From the NCBI GenBank assembly GCA_020249775.1, contig JADCFA010000016.1, forward strand, positions 1 through 64,000: a stretch of 64,000 nt of DNA, given 5' to 3'. This stretch comes from Roseomonas sp. (GTDB lineage: Bacteria > Pseudomonadota > Alphaproteobacteria > Acetobacterales > Acetobacteraceae). The stretch's first letter is position 1. Every line of letters starts with the position of its first letter. Positions 7,878 through 20,062 of this stretch are shown one piece after another. The translations under genes and the position numbers were made by a program. The notes below the pieces were generated by a model. The model worked only from the letters and a program-made list of their open reading frames with translations. It ran no database searches and was not told the origin of the DNA.

Positions 7878-9683
7878 TTATGGCGTTGCCGCCGTATCTT
7901 CGGCCATATCGGCCCCATCTTCACCCCGGCGCAAGGCGCCAAGGGCTTCGGTAAGGCGGATCAGCCTTTGCTGCGCCGCCGGGTCATTCGTGGCGGCGAA
8001 GCTTTCCGCCGCCGCCTTCTGGTCTTCAAGCAAAGCCGCCTCTCCGCGCAGCCTCAGGAAGAAATGCCAGAAGCCTTCCTCTACCTCCCGCGGCAGCGCA
8101 TCGGGGCGCGCCGCTTGGGGCAGGGCCTCAGCGCCAAGCGCCCAGGCCGCAGCATCCGCCAAACCTTCAGTTGCGAGGTGGGATAGCAGGGCCTGAGAGT
8201 CAAGGCGCTGAGGGTCCATAGGCCAGGACAGAATGGCGCTTTGCAGCCGCCGTGCCGGGCCTTCGGGCAGGTCAAGCAGGCCAAAGGCTTCTTCAATCTG
8301 CGGCAGCAGCCAGGGGTGGCGGAGCAGAATGGCGATCAGAATGCGCGCCTGGGCAGTGCGGATGGCGGGCGCGACCAGGGCAGGGCGAGTGATGCGCTGC
8401 GCTGGCGCGGCGCGGCCGGGCTGACGGCGCGTGGCGGCAAAGAAGCGATCGAGCAAAGCCTGGCGATATTCCCCGGCCAAGGCGCGGTCCGTAATGGTGG
8501 CGGCGGCGGCGACCAGGCGGTTGCGCGCGGCGGCGCGTTGTTCCGGGCTCGCCATCGGTTGGCCTTCCAACAGCAGGCCGTAAAGCGCTTCTGAGAGGGG
8601 CCGCGCGCCATCCAACACGGCCTGGAAGGCGGCTTTGCCGCCCTTGGCGATCAGCGTATCGGGGTCTTCCCCCGCCGGCAGGGTCGCCAGCTTCAGGCTG
8701 CGTTCGGCGCTGATCAGCGGCAGGGCGGCTTCCGCAACACGGGCAGCGGCCCGGGCGCCGGCGGCATCGCCATCAAAACACAGCACCGGTTCGGGCGATA
8801 GGCGCCATAATTCCTGCAACTGATCTTCCGTGAGCGCGGTGCCAAGCGGCGCCACCGCCCCGGTGAAGCCCGCCTGATGGAGCGCGATCACATCCATATA
8901 GCCTTCAACCGCCACCACCGAGGCACCGCGAAAAGCGCCTTCCCGCGCGCGGTCCAGCCCGTAAAGCGCATAGCGTTTGCGAAACAGCGGCGTTTCCGGG
9001 CTGTTGATGTATTTCGGCTGACCATCGCCCAGAATGCGCCCGCCAAAGGCAATCACGCGCCCGCGCCGGTCCCGGATGGGGAACATGACGCGGTTGAAGA
9101 AAAAATCGCGCGGCGCTTCATCGCCTTCGGGCGCCTTCAGCAGGCCGGCTTCGATGAGTTGCGCGGTTTCGAACGCATCCTGCTTCAAATCCGCCTGCAA
9201 GGCGCCGCGCCCCGCGCCCGCCCAGCCGAGGCCGAAGCCCTGAATGGTATCCTCGGTCAGGCCGCGGCGGCGGAGGTATTCCAAAGCCGGGCGGCCTTCC
9301 GGCAGGCGGAGCCGGCGCTGAAACGCGGCGCTGGCCGCTTCCATAACAGTGTGGAGGTCCCGCGCCTGGCGGGCGCGTTCGGCATCGCGCGGGGCGAGTT
9401 TGGGGACATCGAGCCCTGCTTCGCTGGCCAGGCGTTCCACCGCTTCCATGAATTGCGCGCCTTCGGCCCGCATGACGAAGGTAACGGCATCCCCATGGGC
9501 GCCGCAGCCAAAGCAGTGGAAGTGGTCGTCATAAACGTAGAAAGACGGCGTCTTTTCCCCATGAAAGGGGCAGCAGCCCTTCCAGTTACGCCCGGATTTG
9601 AGCAGCCGCGTCTTCCGCCCGATCAGACCGGGCAGGGGCGTGCGGGCGCGAAGCTCATCAAGGAAACCGGGGGGCAGGGCCAT
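7878..9683 (-). CDS. dnaG: DNA primase
   Basis: Synthesises RNA primers at the replication fork; 601 residues. The CHC2 zinc-binding domain has Cys38, His41, Cys57 and Cys60, followed by the toprim core with VVAVEGYMDVIAL and LCFDGDAAGARAA, and a C-terminal DnaB-interaction region. The first 24 codons plus 25 bases upstream (9612-9708) occur again at 10404-10500. Because of that duplication only 25 bases of native upstream DNA remain in front of this start. The original promoter lies beyond an inserted gene in the same orientation, and dnaG expression may depend on read-through. Confidence 0.97.
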   Translation of the reverse strand: MALPPGFLDELRARTPLPGLIGRKTRLLKSGRNWKGCCPFHGEKTPSFYVYDDHFHCFGCGAHGDAVTFVMRAEGAQFMEAVERLASEAGLDVPKLAPRDAERARQARDLHTVMEAASAAFQRRLRLPEGRPALEYLRRRGLTEDTIQGFGLGWAGAGRGALQADLKQDAFETAQLIEAGLLKAPEGDEAPRDFFFNRVMFPIRDRRGRVIAFGGRILGDGQPKYINSPETPLFRKRYALYGLDRAREGAFRGASVVAVEGYMDVIALHQAGFTGAVAPLGTALTEDQLQELWRLSPEPVLCFDGDAAGARAAARVAEAALPLISAERSLKLATLPAGEDPDTLIAKGGKAAFQAVLDGARPLSEALYGLLLEGQPMASPEQRAAARNRLVAAAATITDRALAGEYRQALLDRFFAATRRQPGRAAPAQRITRPALVAPAIRTAQARILIAILLRHPWLLPQIEEAFGLLDLPEGPARRLQSAILSWPMDPQRLDSQALLSHLATEGLADAAAWALGAEALPQAARPDALPREVEEGFWHFFLRLRGEAALLEDQKAAAESFAATNDPAAQQRLIRLTEALGALRRGEDGADMAEDTAATP

Positions 9684-9708
9684 GGCGAGGGGGTAGGATA
9701 TACCTTTG
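9612..9708 (-). repeat. 97-bp direct repeat, copy A (5' end of dnaG)
   Basis: Identical to 10404-10500 except at 9648 and 9692 (95 of 97 bases; offset exactly 792). It covers the first 24 codons of dnaG and 25 bases upstream including the ribosome-binding site. Copy A belongs to the intact primase gene. Confidence 0.97.
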
Positions 9709-9746
9709 ATGGGAAAAGTGGACTCGGGCGGGGGCGTCGGATCATG

Positions 9747-10322
9747 TCATTGGCAGTCAAAGCCGTTTGGCGTGGGGCGACCCGTCATGGCGCTTAGCTT
9801 TCTGAACAGGTCCTCCACCGCGCTTTGCCCCTCAACGGTATCAAACAGATGTTTGTCCGTTTCGACTAATTTTTGGCTTGCATCCGCACAGGCCACTCCC
9901 AACTCCTCAGCACCTAATCGTGCTAAGGACTCATCCATTTGTCGTCGCAGCCGGGACCGCGCATCAACGCCATAGAGCGCTTCAAATCGGCCCTCACCAA
10001 GTGAAACGCCTCGGCTCACAAAACCCGCCAGTCTTTCTGGCAATGGAACACGACAAACACTACCGACGACTTCGAAGAGACGTAGGCGGGAAAGAAAGAA
10101 ACTGAAGCACGCTTCGGCTTGGCCTTCGGGGGGCTGGCCCGAATTATCTTGCGTCAAATGAAAGCTTTTTGCACTCATCAGCGGGTCCGCTATCGAGGAG
10201 AAGGCAGAGCTAACAGAGCGTGTCCCAATTTCGGAATGCCATGACTGCGCGAACATCGAGCTAAAGCTTCCCTGGAAGGTCAGGCAAAGCGCAATCAGCG
10301 CGATCCGACGGGCATTCTGCAT
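9747..10322 (-). CDS. Hypothetical exported protein inserted before dnaG
   Basis: Unrecognised protein of 191 residues. The N-terminus (RRIALIALCLTFQGSFSSMFAQ) is a signal peptide with probable cleavage after FAQ, so it is exported. The mature part is mostly helical and charged, with RLRRQMDESLARLGAEE and a short amphipathic C-terminal helix. Composition is less GC-rich than the neighbours. The frame is open without a stop back to the dnaG start codon of repeat copy B (10475). A 242-residue chimera starting with the first 24 residues of DnaG is therefore also possible, and it would use the native dnaG ribosome-binding site. The internal ATG 10322 is preferred because the signal peptide starts there, though its own ribosome-binding site is weak. 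Confidence 0.6.
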   Translation of the reverse strand: MQNARRIALIALCLTFQGSFSSMFAQSWHSEIGTRSVSSAFSSIADPLMSAKSFHLTQDNSGQPPEGQAEACFSFFLSRLRLFEVVGSVCRVPLPERLAGFVSRGVSLGEGRFEALYGVDARSRLRRQMDESLARLGAEELGVACADASQKLVETDKHLFDTVEGQSAVEDLFRKLSAMTGRPTPNGFDCQ

Positions 10323-10403
10323 GGTCTTTATCCGAAGTTTTTGCCAAAGCGAAAGTGGTTCTCTGTTTTGCCAAGCCCTATATCGCTGCCTTGAGTTTTG
10401 GAC

Positions 10404-10500
10404 CTTCCGCCCGATCAGACCGGGCAGGGGCGTGCGGGCACGAAGCTCATCAAGGAAACCGGGGGGCAGGGCCATGGCGAGGGTGTAGGATATACCTTTG
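10404..10500 (-). repeat. 97-bp direct repeat, copy B (truncated dnaG 5' end)
   Basis: Second copy of the dnaG start region, differing from copy A at 10440 and 10484. It retains the ribosome-binding site, the start codon at 10475 and 24 codons, then diverges abruptly at 10404. It lies next to the presumed original upstream region of dnaG (10501-10645). Confidence 0.97.
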
Positions 10501-10645
10501 CAGGAAAAAAATAGAGCACAGGCGTGGGGCCAAAAAAACACCCCCTATAAATAGGAGAGTCGTTTTTACCATGCTTGGGGCTCTGGTTTGCGCCCAGGCA
10601 GCAAGGCGGCTATCCCGGCCCACCTATTTTTGAAGGAACGCGACC

Positions 10646-10864
10646 ATGACCCCCGCCGAACGCGCCGCCGTGCAGGCGCATCTGCGCAAGCTTTTCAGCA
10701 ACCCCCGCATTCAGGTGACCGCGCCGGACCGCCCCAAGGGCAGTGTGGAGCTCAAAATCGGCAATGAATTCATCGGCACCGTCCACCGCGACGCGGAAGA
10801 TGGCGATGTTTCCTATGCCGTGCAGATCGTGGTGCTGGCGGAAGATTTACAGGACAACGACTAG
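10646..10864 (+). CDS. DUF3126 family protein
   Basis: A small protein of 72 residues, full length for DUF3126, an alphaproteobacterial family of unknown function. The conserved features are IQVTAPDRPKGSVELKIGNEFIGT in the middle and DGDVSYAVQIVVL near the end. GAAGGAACGC precedes the ATG. It is divergent from dnaG and convergent with the yqeY homologue, an arrangement often seen in this class. Confidence 0.88.
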   Translation: MTPAERAAVQAHLRKLFSNPRIQVTAPDRPKGSVELKIGNEFIGTVHRDAEDGDVSYAVQIVVLAEDLQDND

Positions 10865-10887: not shown

Positions 10888-11349
10888 TTAGCCCCCCAGC
10901 CGCGCCTTCACCATCGGCCCGGCCTTGGCCATATCCAGGGCTGCGGCGTGGCGGGATTTCAGCACCGCCATCACCTTGCCCATATCCTTGATGGAAGCCG
11001 CCCCCGCTTCCGCCACCGCCGCATCAACCGCGGCAGCCATGGCAGCATCATCCATCTGCTGCGGCAGGAAGCCTTCAATCACGGCGATTTCGGCTTCTTC
11101 CTTCGCCGCCAATTCAGGGCGATTGCCCTGGCGGTACAAATCCACACTTTCGCGCCGGGATTTCGCCATCCCGCGCAGCATAGCGATGATCTGATCATCC
11201 GGCACGCCCGGGTCCTGCGGCGTCTTGCGCGCGGCGATATCGGTATCCTTCAGCTTGGCCATGATCATGCGCATGGTGGAGGTTGTGGCCGCATCCTTGG
11301 CGAGCATCGCGGTCTTCAGGGCATCGGTGAAACGGGCGCGGAGTTCCAT
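10888..11349 (-). CDS. GatB/YqeY domain protein
   Basis: A 153-residue protein of the YqeY family, homologous to the C-terminal tRNA-binding tail domain of the GatB amidotransferase subunit. Typical blocks are MRMIMAKLKDTDIA, QIIAMLRGMAKSRRESVDLY and EEAEIAVIEGFLPQQM. Its role is not established; it is thought to touch tRNA-dependent amidation or stress. AAGGAA lies 9 bases before the start. It is the only gene in its small transcription unit. Confidence 0.92.
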   Translation of the reverse strand: MELRARFTDALKTAMLAKDAATTSTMRMIMAKLKDTDIAARKTPQDPGVPDDQIIAMLRGMAKSRRESVDLYRQGNRPELAAKEEAEIAVIEGFLPQQMDDAAMAAAVDAAVAEAGAASIKDMGKVMAVLKSRHAAALDMAKAGPMVKARLGG

Positions 11350-13697: not shown

Positions 13698-14933
13698 ATG
13701 AAAACCTCCCAGGATGTAGATGTTTGCGTGGTGGGTGCCGGGCCGGTCGGCGCCACCCTGGCCGCCAGGTTGGCCGGCGCCGGGGTCAGGACCGCGGTGG
13801 TTGACGCGGCCCCCCTGCCGCCCATGGAAATGCCCGCCTTTGATGGCCGCGCCTATGCCATTGCATTGACCTCCAAACGGCTGCTGGACGCCAGCGGCGT
13901 TTGGGAAAGGCTGCCGGTGGAACCCTGCCCCATCCTTGGCATTCGCGTGGCCGATGGCCGGCCGGGTGATGCGCCATCTTCGCTCTCACTGCATTTCGAT
14001 CATGCGGCACTTGGTCATGATCCCTTTGGCTGGATGGTAGAGGCACGGTCGCTCCGCATCGCGCTCAATGCCCATTTGCCGCAATTGGCCAATCTTACGG
14101 TGCATGCGCCCGCCAAGGCCGAGGTCACGCGGGATGCTGATGGTACGACCATCACGCTTTCATCGGGCACGCAATTCCGCGCCCGGCTGGTGGTCGGCGC
14201 CGAGGGGCGCAATAGCCCGCTGCGCGCCGCTGCCGGGATTCGCGTTTCCCGGCTGGATTACCATTGCATGGGCATTGTCGGGTCCATCGCGCATGAAAAG
14301 CCGCATCGCAATATGGCGCTTGAGCAATTCCTGCCCCATGGCCCCTTCGCCCAATTGCCCATGCCGCCATTGCCAGACCATCCCCATGTGAGCGCCATTG
14401 TCTGGACCGACAAGACCGCGATTGCGGAGCGTTGCCTCGCCATGGATGATGCTGCCTATGGGCGCGAAATCGCGCGGCGCCTTGGCGGGCATTTGGGCGC
14501 CGTGAAGCCGATTGGCCGGCGCTGGTCCTATCCGCTCTCGGCCATGCATGCCGCACGCTATGTGGACACACGCATGGCGCTGGTGGGCGATGCCGCGCAT
14601 GGCATTCACCCGATTGCGGGCCAGGGGCTCAATCTTGGCTTTCGTGATGTGGATGCGCTGGCTGCGCTGGTGATTGAAGCTGTGGCGCGCGGTGATGACC
14701 CCGGCGCCGAAGCGCTGCTGGCGCGCTACCAGGCCAAGCGCCGGCCCGATAGCCTGCTGATGCTGGGTGCGACCCATGCGCTGGAACGGCTCTTCGCCAA
14801 TGACATCGCCCCCATCCGCATCGCGCGCCGGCTTGGCATTGCCGCGGTGGACCGCCTGCCCAGGCTCAAGAATTTCTTTGCGCGGCAAGCGATGGGGATG
14901 AATTCATCTGCGGGGGCGCTGATCGGGAGGTAA
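13698..14933 (+). CDS. UbiH/COQ6-family FAD-dependent hydroxylase
   Basis: Flavoprotein monooxygenase of 411 residues, probably acting on the ubiquinone ring. The N-terminal dinucleotide motif VCVVGAGPVGATLAARLAGAG binds FAD, a DG-type motif RLVVGAEGRNSPLR lies near residue 168, and the GD motif MALVGDAAHGIHPIAGQGLN is near residue 295. Start ATG 13698 is preferred over 13662 because the Rossmann strand follows it at the usual distance. UbiH, UbiF and UbiI cannot be told apart from sequence alone. It stands alone, divergent from glnK. Confidence 0.9.
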   Translation: MKTSQDVDVCVVGAGPVGATLAARLAGAGVRTAVVDAAPLPPMEMPAFDGRAYAIALTSKRLLDASGVWERLPVEPCPILGIRVADGRPGDAPSSLSLHFDHAALGHDPFGWMVEARSLRIALNAHLPQLANLTVHAPAKAEVTRDADGTTITLSSGTQFRARLVVGAEGRNSPLRAAAGIRVSRLDYHCMGIVGSIAHEKPHRNMALEQFLPHGPFAQLPMPPLPDHPHVSAIVWTDKTAIAERCLAMDDAAYGREIARRLGGHLGAVKPIGRRWSYPLSAMHAARYVDTRMALVGDAAHGIHPIAGQGLNLGFRDVDALAALVIEAVARGDDPGAEALLARYQAKRRPDSLLMLGATHALERLFANDIAPIRIARRLGIAAVDRLPRLKNFFARQAMGMNSSAGALIGR

Positions 14934-18464: not shown

Positions 18465-20062
18465 GCGCGGTGCTTGCCCTTGATGGTCTCACGGTTGCCC
18501 TGCCGCGCGGCGCGGATCGGCCAGAGGCGCTGCGGCAGGTCTCGCTTGAATTGAAGGCGGGCGAGATTCTGTGCGTGGTTGGTGAAAGCGGTTCGGGCAA
18601 ATCCATGATGGCGAGTGCCATCATGCGCCTGCTGCCGGGCAATGTGCGTATCACCGGCGGCAGCATCCTGTTCGAAGGCAAGGACCTTGCCAGCGCGGAT
18701 GAGGCAACCATGCGCGCGCTACGCGGCGCCCGCATTGCCATGGTGTTCCAGGAACCCATGACCGCGCTCAATCCCTTGCGCAGCATTGGCGATCAGATCG
18801 CCGAGATGTTTCGTATTCATACCAACCTGAATAAGACTGAAATCGAAGCCCGCGTGCTGGCATTGCTGGACGAAGTGCGTATCCCACACCCGGCGGAAGC
18901 CGCGCGCGCCTTCCCGCATGAGCTTTCCGGCGGGCAGCGCCAGCGCGCCATGATTGCCATGGCCTTGGCGCTTGATCCTGTGGTGCTGATTGCCGATGAA
19001 CCCACCACGGCCTTGGATGTCACGACCCAGGCGCAAATCCTGGCGCTGATCCGCGATTTGCAGCGACGCAAGGGCACGGCGGTGCTGTTCATCACGCATG
19101 ATTTCGGCGTGGTGGCGGAAATCGCTGATCGCGTGGCAGTCATGCAGCATGGGCTTTTGGTGGAACAAGGCCCGGCGCGCGAAGTGCTGCACCAACCCCA
19201 GCACGACTATACAAAGGCGCTGATCGCCGCCGTGCCACCGCTGAAAGCCCCGGCACCGCGGGAAATTTCCAGCGAGTCCATCCTGGTGCTGGAGAGTGTA
19301 CAAAAAACCTATCGCAGCGGCGGCTTGTTTGGGCGCCGCCGGCGCGAAACCCATGCGGTGCGGGATGTCACACTCTCGCTCCCCAAAGGCGGTACGCTTG
19401 GCGTGGTGGGCGAATCAGGCTCCGGCAAATCCACGCTCGCGCGTTGCATCACACGGCTGGTGCGCGCCGATAGCGGCAGCATTCGGCTTGATGGCGTTGA
19501 TCTTTTGCACCTGTCGAAACGCGAAGCACGCCAGGCCGCGCGACGCATCCAGATGGTGTTTCAGGACCCCTATGCCTCGCTCAATCCGCGCCGGCGCGCG
19601 GGGGAATTGGTGGCGCAAGGCCCAATGATCCATGGCATGGCGCGCGATGCGGCCATGGCGAAGGCGCGCGAATTATTCGCCCTGGTCGGGCTTGATCCAG
19701 CGGCGATTGAACGCTTCACGCATGAGTTTTCCGGCGGGCAGCGCCAGCGTATTGGGCTCGCGCGGGCGCTTGCGATGGCACCGGAAGTGCTGGTGGCGGA
19801 TGAACCAGTCTCGGCGCTTGATGTGTCGGTGCAGGCGCAGGTCCTGAAGCTGCTCGCGGAATTGCGCGAAAGGCTTGGGCTTTCGATTGTTTTCATCACG
19901 CATGATTTGCGCGTGGCGGCGCAGGTTTGTGATCTGGTCGCAGTGATGAAGGATGGGGAAGTGGTGGAACACGGCCCGATTGCGCGGGTGTTTGAAGCGC
20001 CGCGCCATGCCTATACCCAGGCGCTATTGGCTTCCGTGCCCGGGCGCGGCTTTGGGGCTTAG
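18461..20062 (+). CDS. ABC transporter ATP-binding protein, fused DppD-DppF type
   Basis: One 533-residue polypeptide carries two nucleotide-binding domains, like GsiA. Domain 1 has Walker A GESGSGKS (~residue 43), signature LSGGQRQR and Walker B VVLIADEPTTALD. Domain 2 has Walker A GESGSGKSTLARC (~315), signature FSGGQRQRIGLARALA and Walker B EVLVADEPVSALD. A linker of roughly 20 residues separates them. It powers the upstream receptor and permease pair, so the operon encodes a complete importer without other genes. Confidence 0.95.
   Translation: MSAVLALDGLTVALPRGADRPEALRQVSLELKAGEILCVVGESGSGKSMMASAIMRLLPGNVRITGGSILFEGKDLASADEATMRALRGARIAMVFQEPMTALNPLRSIGDQIAEMFRIHTNLNKTEIEARVLALLDEVRIPHPAEAARAFPHELSGGQRQRAMIAMALALDPVVLIADEPTTALDVTTQAQILALIRDLQRRKGTAVLFITHDFGVVAEIADRVAVMQHGLLVEQGPAREVLHQPQHDYTKALIAAVPPLKAPAPREISSESILVLESVQKTYRSGGLFGRRRRETHAVRDVTLSLPKGGTLGVVGESGSGKSTLARCITRLVRADSGSIRLDGVDLLHLSKREARQAARRIQMVFQDPYASLNPRRRAGELVAQGPMIHGMARDAAMAKARELFALVGLDPAAIERFTHEFSGGQRQRIGLARALAMAPEVLVADEPVSALDVSVQAQVLKLLAELRERLGLSIVFITHDLRVAAQVCDLVAVMKDGEVVEHGPIARVFEAPRHAYTQALLASVPGRGFGA

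Follow-up and report, generated by a model that had tools for sequence, protein, structure and literature searches.

Duplicated dnaG start sequences around an inserted gene in a Roseomonas-like bacterium: a probable case of insertion with long target duplication

Upstream of the primase gene dnaG in a Roseomonas sp. genome, a gene for a small, exported-looking protein is held between two direct copies of the dnaG start, and the site that it occupies is empty in seven close relatives. The arrangement lies in the window, the 64,000-nucleotide stretch of DNA that was analysed (NCBI GenBank assembly GCA_020249775.1, contig JADCFA010000016.1, positions 1 to 64,000 of the forward strand), and the source genome, G000, clusters in a clade with Roseomonas MAGs. 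Judged by its layout, the dnaG locus appears to match the process described as insertion with long target duplication. It is probable, at about 0.65, that the gene was inserted by import and host recombination, which left the long target duplication behind, and the insertion is most likely owed to ordinary DNA recombination and not to a dedicated mobile-element enzyme. Established here are the anatomy of the locus and its recurrence elsewhere in these genomes, the empty sites, and the fact that the two upstream stretches have diverged.

The intact dnaG gene (7878..9683, reverse strand) is complete and encodes a DNA primase of 601 amino acids with the Pfam Zn_ribbon_DnaG, DNAG_N and Toprim domains. 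Its upstream bases, start and codons 1-24 form the first repeat copy (9612..9708, reverse strand). The second copy (10404..10500, reverse strand) is a truncated, orphan dnaG 5' end to which the native upstream region is still attached. The two are identical at 95 of 97 bases, with mismatches at 9648 and 9692, and the match can be extended to 106 nt at 95%. The insert that they delimit (695 bp, 9709..10403) is missing from the seven relatives with an empty site, and its GC content of 54.2% is lower than that of dnaG (67.3%) or of the window (61.7%). Its dnaG-proximal end overlaps a clade-typical stretch of about 54 bp kept upstream of the intact gene (9684..9737, reverse strand), which has three mismatches to the consensus of the aligned dnaG upstream regions. 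Beyond the orphan copy lie a terminator-like hairpin with a T run (10533..10558, reverse strand; stem 10541-10558), similar by eye to what many relatives have there, a DUF3126 gene (10646..10864, forward strand; PF11324) that marks the empty site in relatives, and a YqeY-like gene (10888..11349, reverse strand; PF09424). When the whole window was searched for direct repeats of at least 45 nt within 5 kb, a second family was found (87 nt, 77%, 19088-19174 and 19892-19978), apparently paralogous transporter ATPase sequence as judged by eye. The hairpin sequence CTATTTATAGGGGG was considered as a possible mobile-element end and rejected: allowing at most one mismatch, it occurs once per genome in three of seven genomes, always at dnaG.

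A first-pass annotation of this DNA had described the repeat, the lower-GC insert with a long open frame, the native upstream region ahead of the truncated copy and an intact dnaG downstream. The repeat is real, the insert and the frame both held when recomputed, and the two remaining points were borne out. The frame of 242 codons (9747..10475, reverse strand) runs from the upstream dnaG ATG (10475) to a stop ending at 9747 and joins 24 dnaG codons to the inserted gene proper (9747..10322, reverse strand), whose 191-residue protein begins at internal Met 52. The same annotation had seen meaning in this in-frame fusion. The homologous gene is out of frame in the other carriers G014, G047 and G012, in which it starts 305 bp (G014, G047) or 304 bp (G012) after the truncated dnaG ATG and has GGAGAA directly 5' of its own ATG; only in the window is it in frame. 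A functional fusion was accordingly dropped, the frame not being conserved among carriers, and we read the one in the window as incidental.

The inserted protein is rare. Among 5.8 billion proteins it falls into six clusters, its own included, and no family match was obtained in Pfam, NCBIfam or PADLOC, nor a significant match in the PDB. Four cysteines are invariant across seven aligned sequences, and a signal peptide recognised by eye gives the protein an exported appearance. Matches were found in three of 39 relatives (this genome, G014 and G012), in three of 299 genomes of the order (this genome, G014 and G047) and at two loci among GTDB genome contigs, both from Roseomonas MAGs. Between G014 and G047, dN is 0.034 and dS 0.077, and the gene evolves fast, yet seems to be under constraint. 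Beside it in G014 lies a second exported-looking gene (L029 9026-9718), with relatives in G047 and G048; its family is unmatched, and it has three clusters in the protein database.

The dnaG start region could be matched in 34 of 35 genomes of the genus (G017 gave no match and was left out), which divide into a close group of 18, including this one, with dnaG fragments at about 90% protein identity or more, and a distant group of 16 at about 67-79%. The comparison with close relatives that the first-pass annotation had asked for did reveal an empty site: in seven of the 18 close genomes (G019, G008, G049, G050, G006, G044 and G002) the gap between DUF3126 and dnaG measures just 164-173 bp, both start codons counted. 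A truncated dnaG together with a homologue of the inserted gene is present in four, namely this genome, G014, G047 and G012, the contig of the last stopping within the homologue. Four more (G046, G039, G043 and G045) carry other cargo in the gap and no second dnaG start was seen in them. The G046 cargo has homing-endonuclease-associated repeats (PF18780), that of G039 is an HNH-like gene (an identical-looking gene in G012 scores under the Pfam cut-off), that of G043 is by eye a degraded small gene, and that of G045 belongs to the HicB family. In G048, two contigs carry a dnaG start, one of them ending at codon 39 of the gene, and the stretches fetched show no homologue of the inserted gene. 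The remaining two were left unclassed: the G007 contig likewise ends at codon 39 of dnaG, and the G022 contig is without DUF3126. In the distant group the gap is short (81-156 bp) in 14 of 16 genomes; in G018 about 3.1 kb separates the two genes, and in G001 the stretch fetched showed no DUF3126. The DNA just upstream of dnaG is an insertion hotspot.

Several further observations concern what lies at this hotspot. The PF18780 gene upstream of dnaG in G046 (L035 1485-2351) has a near-identical open frame in G007 (L046), and the G018 gap (L057) contains a 953-codon open frame on the strand opposite to dnaG. The HNH-like gene belongs to a 773-bp element, the same in G012 (L030 5402-6174) and G039 (C54 4758-5530), with terminal inverted repeats (35 bases, 32 of them matching) and what appears to be a target duplication of 10 bp; it sits within the terminator-like hairpin upstream of dnaG, in a single copy in each of the two genomes, and no match was found in the other 33. 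The truncated dnaG of G014 (L029 8045-8374) keeps an open frame, with similar frames in G047 and G012. Since this remnant still covers the greater part of the primase zinc-finger domain (PF01807, residues 6-87), it could yield a free-standing zinc-finger product.

The breakpoint within dnaG is not a shared core. The truncated copy retains 24 codons in the window as against about 89-90 in G014, G047 and G012, with the break near codon 89 in all three, and the repeat, 97-106 bp long here, reaches 331 bp in G014. Variation of this kind extends beyond dnaG. Comparing this genome (946 kb) and G014 (795 kb) each with itself brought out further inserts between repeats of part of a gene. In G014, the start of acs is repeated over 404-408 bp around an MFS gene, and a query made of the joined flanks with one copy matches as one piece in 14 other genomes, this one included, as two adjoining pieces in G022, and split with the doubled part in G014 itself. 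In this genome, it is the 3' end of a GNAT gene that is duplicated (96 bp, 94%), around an insert of 1.5 kb; a one-piece empty site for it was found in G050, one of 34 other genomes, most of the others matching the gene side alone. In G014, a 233-bp repeat (89%) at a cupin gene and a 274-bp repeat (84%) at a hydrolase gene are candidates. For the cupin locus the joined-flank query gave no one-piece empty site, its left flank being variable and holding a dispersed repeat of about 115 bp (query positions 96-212) that occurs in many places in the close genomes. Over the five loci the target duplication spans 96-408 bp. A 71-bp pair in C8, the window's contig, resembles a dispersed intergenic repeat. 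Inspection covered the repeat pairs other than those at loci L093, L103, L105, L106 and L127, one near 67842 in C8, two tandem families (near 402000 and near 223564), and pairs that were short or 80-91% identical, located near 405377 in G014 and, in G000, near 13860 and 64234. The distant relative G009 had no such case in 400 kb; as the frequency observed here predicts about 1.4 for that length, no difference is indicated.

Where the second dnaG start came from can be approached through the sequence just before the gene. Between positions -60 and -31 the divergence of a genome's two copies from each other is 0.54 in G000, 0.29 in G014, 0.56 in G047 and 0.59 in G048, and the same region differs between strains by a median of 0.36 (range 0.07-0.82; 66 pairs from 12 single-copy genomes). 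Because the upstream copies in one genome thus differ about as much as those of separate strains do, the comparison favours, short of showing it, that one dnaG copy was imported together with the insert, an argument carried by a short stretch that also varies strongly between strains. Over -60 to +72, seven of eight dnaG copies are nearest to the sequence of another genome, often to another truncated copy; the exception is the intact dnaG of G014, nearest to its own orphan copy. The coding part says little on import: over the first 85 codons the two copies agree at 95.3% in G014 and 94.5% in G047, and the intact gene agrees with its nearest relative at 96.5% and 96.9%, respectively. The acs copies, 92.3% identical to each other and 93.8% and 93.1% identical to G022, appear neutral on the matter, and an old duplication in place is possible there.

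In the model that we favour, for which we infer the import, the direction of import and the route of recombination, DNA entering from a different strain would have brought in the cargo gene along with part of the donor's dnaG start region. Through this start region the incoming DNA would have recombined homologously with the resident dnaG, and its other end would have been joined non-homologously within the gene, at codon 24 in the window and near codon 89 in the relatives. The net order would be the resident upstream region, the truncated dnaG start, the cargo, a second upstream region and a complete dnaG. A circularised fragment could give such a product through a single crossover, and so could a one-sided homologous join linking sister chromosomes. 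The first route has a counterpart in E. coli conjugation, where, according to PMC3240628, the transferred DNA, shortened at its homologous end, closed into a circle again and entered by a single crossover, leaving a duplication in 56 of 60 clones, which covered 109-950 bp of the target in the 14 clones sequenced. The likeness lies in the partial duplication beside the insert; as that text describes it, the event there was selected in the laboratory, whereas the one here is natural. The second route can be set beside the merodiploids formed by Streptococcus pneumoniae transformation, for which PMC3784515 has incoming DNA bridge sister chromatids and thereby create duplications; the pneumococcal model outlined there, unlike the present case, needs a repeat already in the recipient and has the duplicated region between repeats. 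A ComEC-family uptake protein is encoded in 34 of the 35 genomes, which is weak support for DNA uptake because the protein is widespread (10 of 14 control genomes). Ku, the simplest end-joining enzyme, was found in six of the 35 genomes, all of the distant group, and in none of the close group, where some genomes are incomplete; Ku-dependent joining of the incoming DNA was rejected, Ku not having been found in the close-group carriers. A comparison of junction microhomology requires the donor sequence.

A different origin would be an integrative element that targeted the dnaG 5' end and supplied a replacement start, its integrase having since been lost. SXT-type elements at prfC and islands at dusA target a gene's 5' end in this way and supply the replacement start, using an integrase and a fixed attachment core. 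The likeness is that the start of the target is regenerated with the insert ahead of it; the repeat at dnaG does span upstream bases, start and first codons, and a longer version, ending at about codon 89, is common to three relatives. The difference is that neither a tyrosine integrase beside the insert nor a shared attachment core was found here. The tyrosine integrase family PF00589 has no member on the window's contig C8 and four elsewhere in the genome (two on C56, one each on C7 and C10), serine integrases and transposases lying outside this search, so that the earlier remark on the lack of an integrase nearby holds for tyrosine integrases. No homologue of the inserted protein was found in viral contigs, the repeat length at dnaG is variable, and similar anatomy recurs at unrelated genes and at a 3' end; we therefore regard a decayed element as quite improbable. 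The dedicated strategy of 5'-end replacement proposed in the first-pass annotation fares no better, as similar repeats flank unrelated cargo at acs, with the cupin and hydrolase genes as candidates, and the GNAT gene is duplicated at its 3' end: the same anatomy at acs and at the GNAT 3' end argues against an integration system specific to the start of dnaG. Overall, that annotation's insertion with a duplicated dnaG 5' end, empty site and no tyrosine integrase nearby has stood, whereas its 5'-replacement strategy, fusion and dependence on read-through have not.

Somewhat less improbable, but still unlikely, is a tandem duplication in place of the dnaG start and neighbouring cargo, followed by deletion, so that the second start would never have been imported. 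The direct orientation and small size of the repeat suit such an event, as do coding parts of the copies nearly as alike as they are to other strains, and acs copies whose mutual identity is on a par with their identity to the nearest relative. Against it, seven of the eight copies find their nearest sequence in another genome over -60 to +72, the cargo is missing in the relatives with an empty site, and the acs cargo lies between flanks that adjoin in 14 other genomes. In favour of an assembly artefact, repeats are apt to break assemblies, and the contigs of G007 and G048 do end inside a dnaG start. Such an artefact is nevertheless unlikely, to the point of being hardly credible, because G014, G047 and G012 share the architecture; the window's contig, moreover, spans the locus over 187 kb, and the homologous gene with its upstream truncated dnaG lies on contigs of 220 and 358 kb in G014 and G047. 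Import and host recombination remain the preferred explanation. A bolder extension of it would make dnaG the seat of an integrase-free exchange, in which small, fast-diverging exported-protein genes are swapped between strains by host recombination with the dnaG start as homology arm, the essential gene serving as an always-rebuilt docking site and some carriers being left with a free-standing primase zinc-finger domain; we hold this to be a speculative idea with little likelihood of being right.

It had also been proposed that the insertion leaves dnaG dependent on transcription through the insert. This is unsupported because about 54 bp of clade-typical sequence remain ahead of the intact copy, and a clade-conserved terminator-like hairpin oriented in the dnaG direction (10558-10541) precedes the truncated copy. 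Within the inserted gene, another terminator-like site of the same orientation (10043-10025) counts against ruling read-through out. On the same side, the three terminator-like sites found are within the range of shuffled sequence (mean 1.4, sd 1.4), and the scan gave no sigma-70-like promoter.

Insertion with long target duplication was described in Helicobacter pylori by Nobusato et al. 2000, as cited in PMC1643837, PMC3031569 and PMC4978471. As far as these citing texts relate it, the likeness extends to the long direct target duplication of variable length around an insert and to the empty site in a relative. Both hold in the present set, with long direct duplications of variable length and single-copy empty sites in seven genomes for dnaG, 14 for acs and one for the GNAT gene. 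The same citing texts name restriction-modification genes as frequent cargo in H. pylori, whereas the cargo here is an exported-looking protein and elsewhere comprises MFS transporters and small proteins, in Roseomonas-like bacteria; the window's cargo is without a family match, and an association given as frequent was not taken as defining. No dnaG case of such an insertion was met in a limited literature search, which is no claim of absence from print.

Insertion with long target duplication is an explanation for gene gain that is seldom invoked. The finding brings it to a Roseomonas-like clade and to cargo beyond restriction-modification genes, and does so at several loci, of which three have an empty site in a sequenced relative. 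The divergence of the upstream copies within one genome suggests that one copy was imported with the insert. The case also cautions that a truncated gene start ahead of an essential gene need not signify a mobile element.
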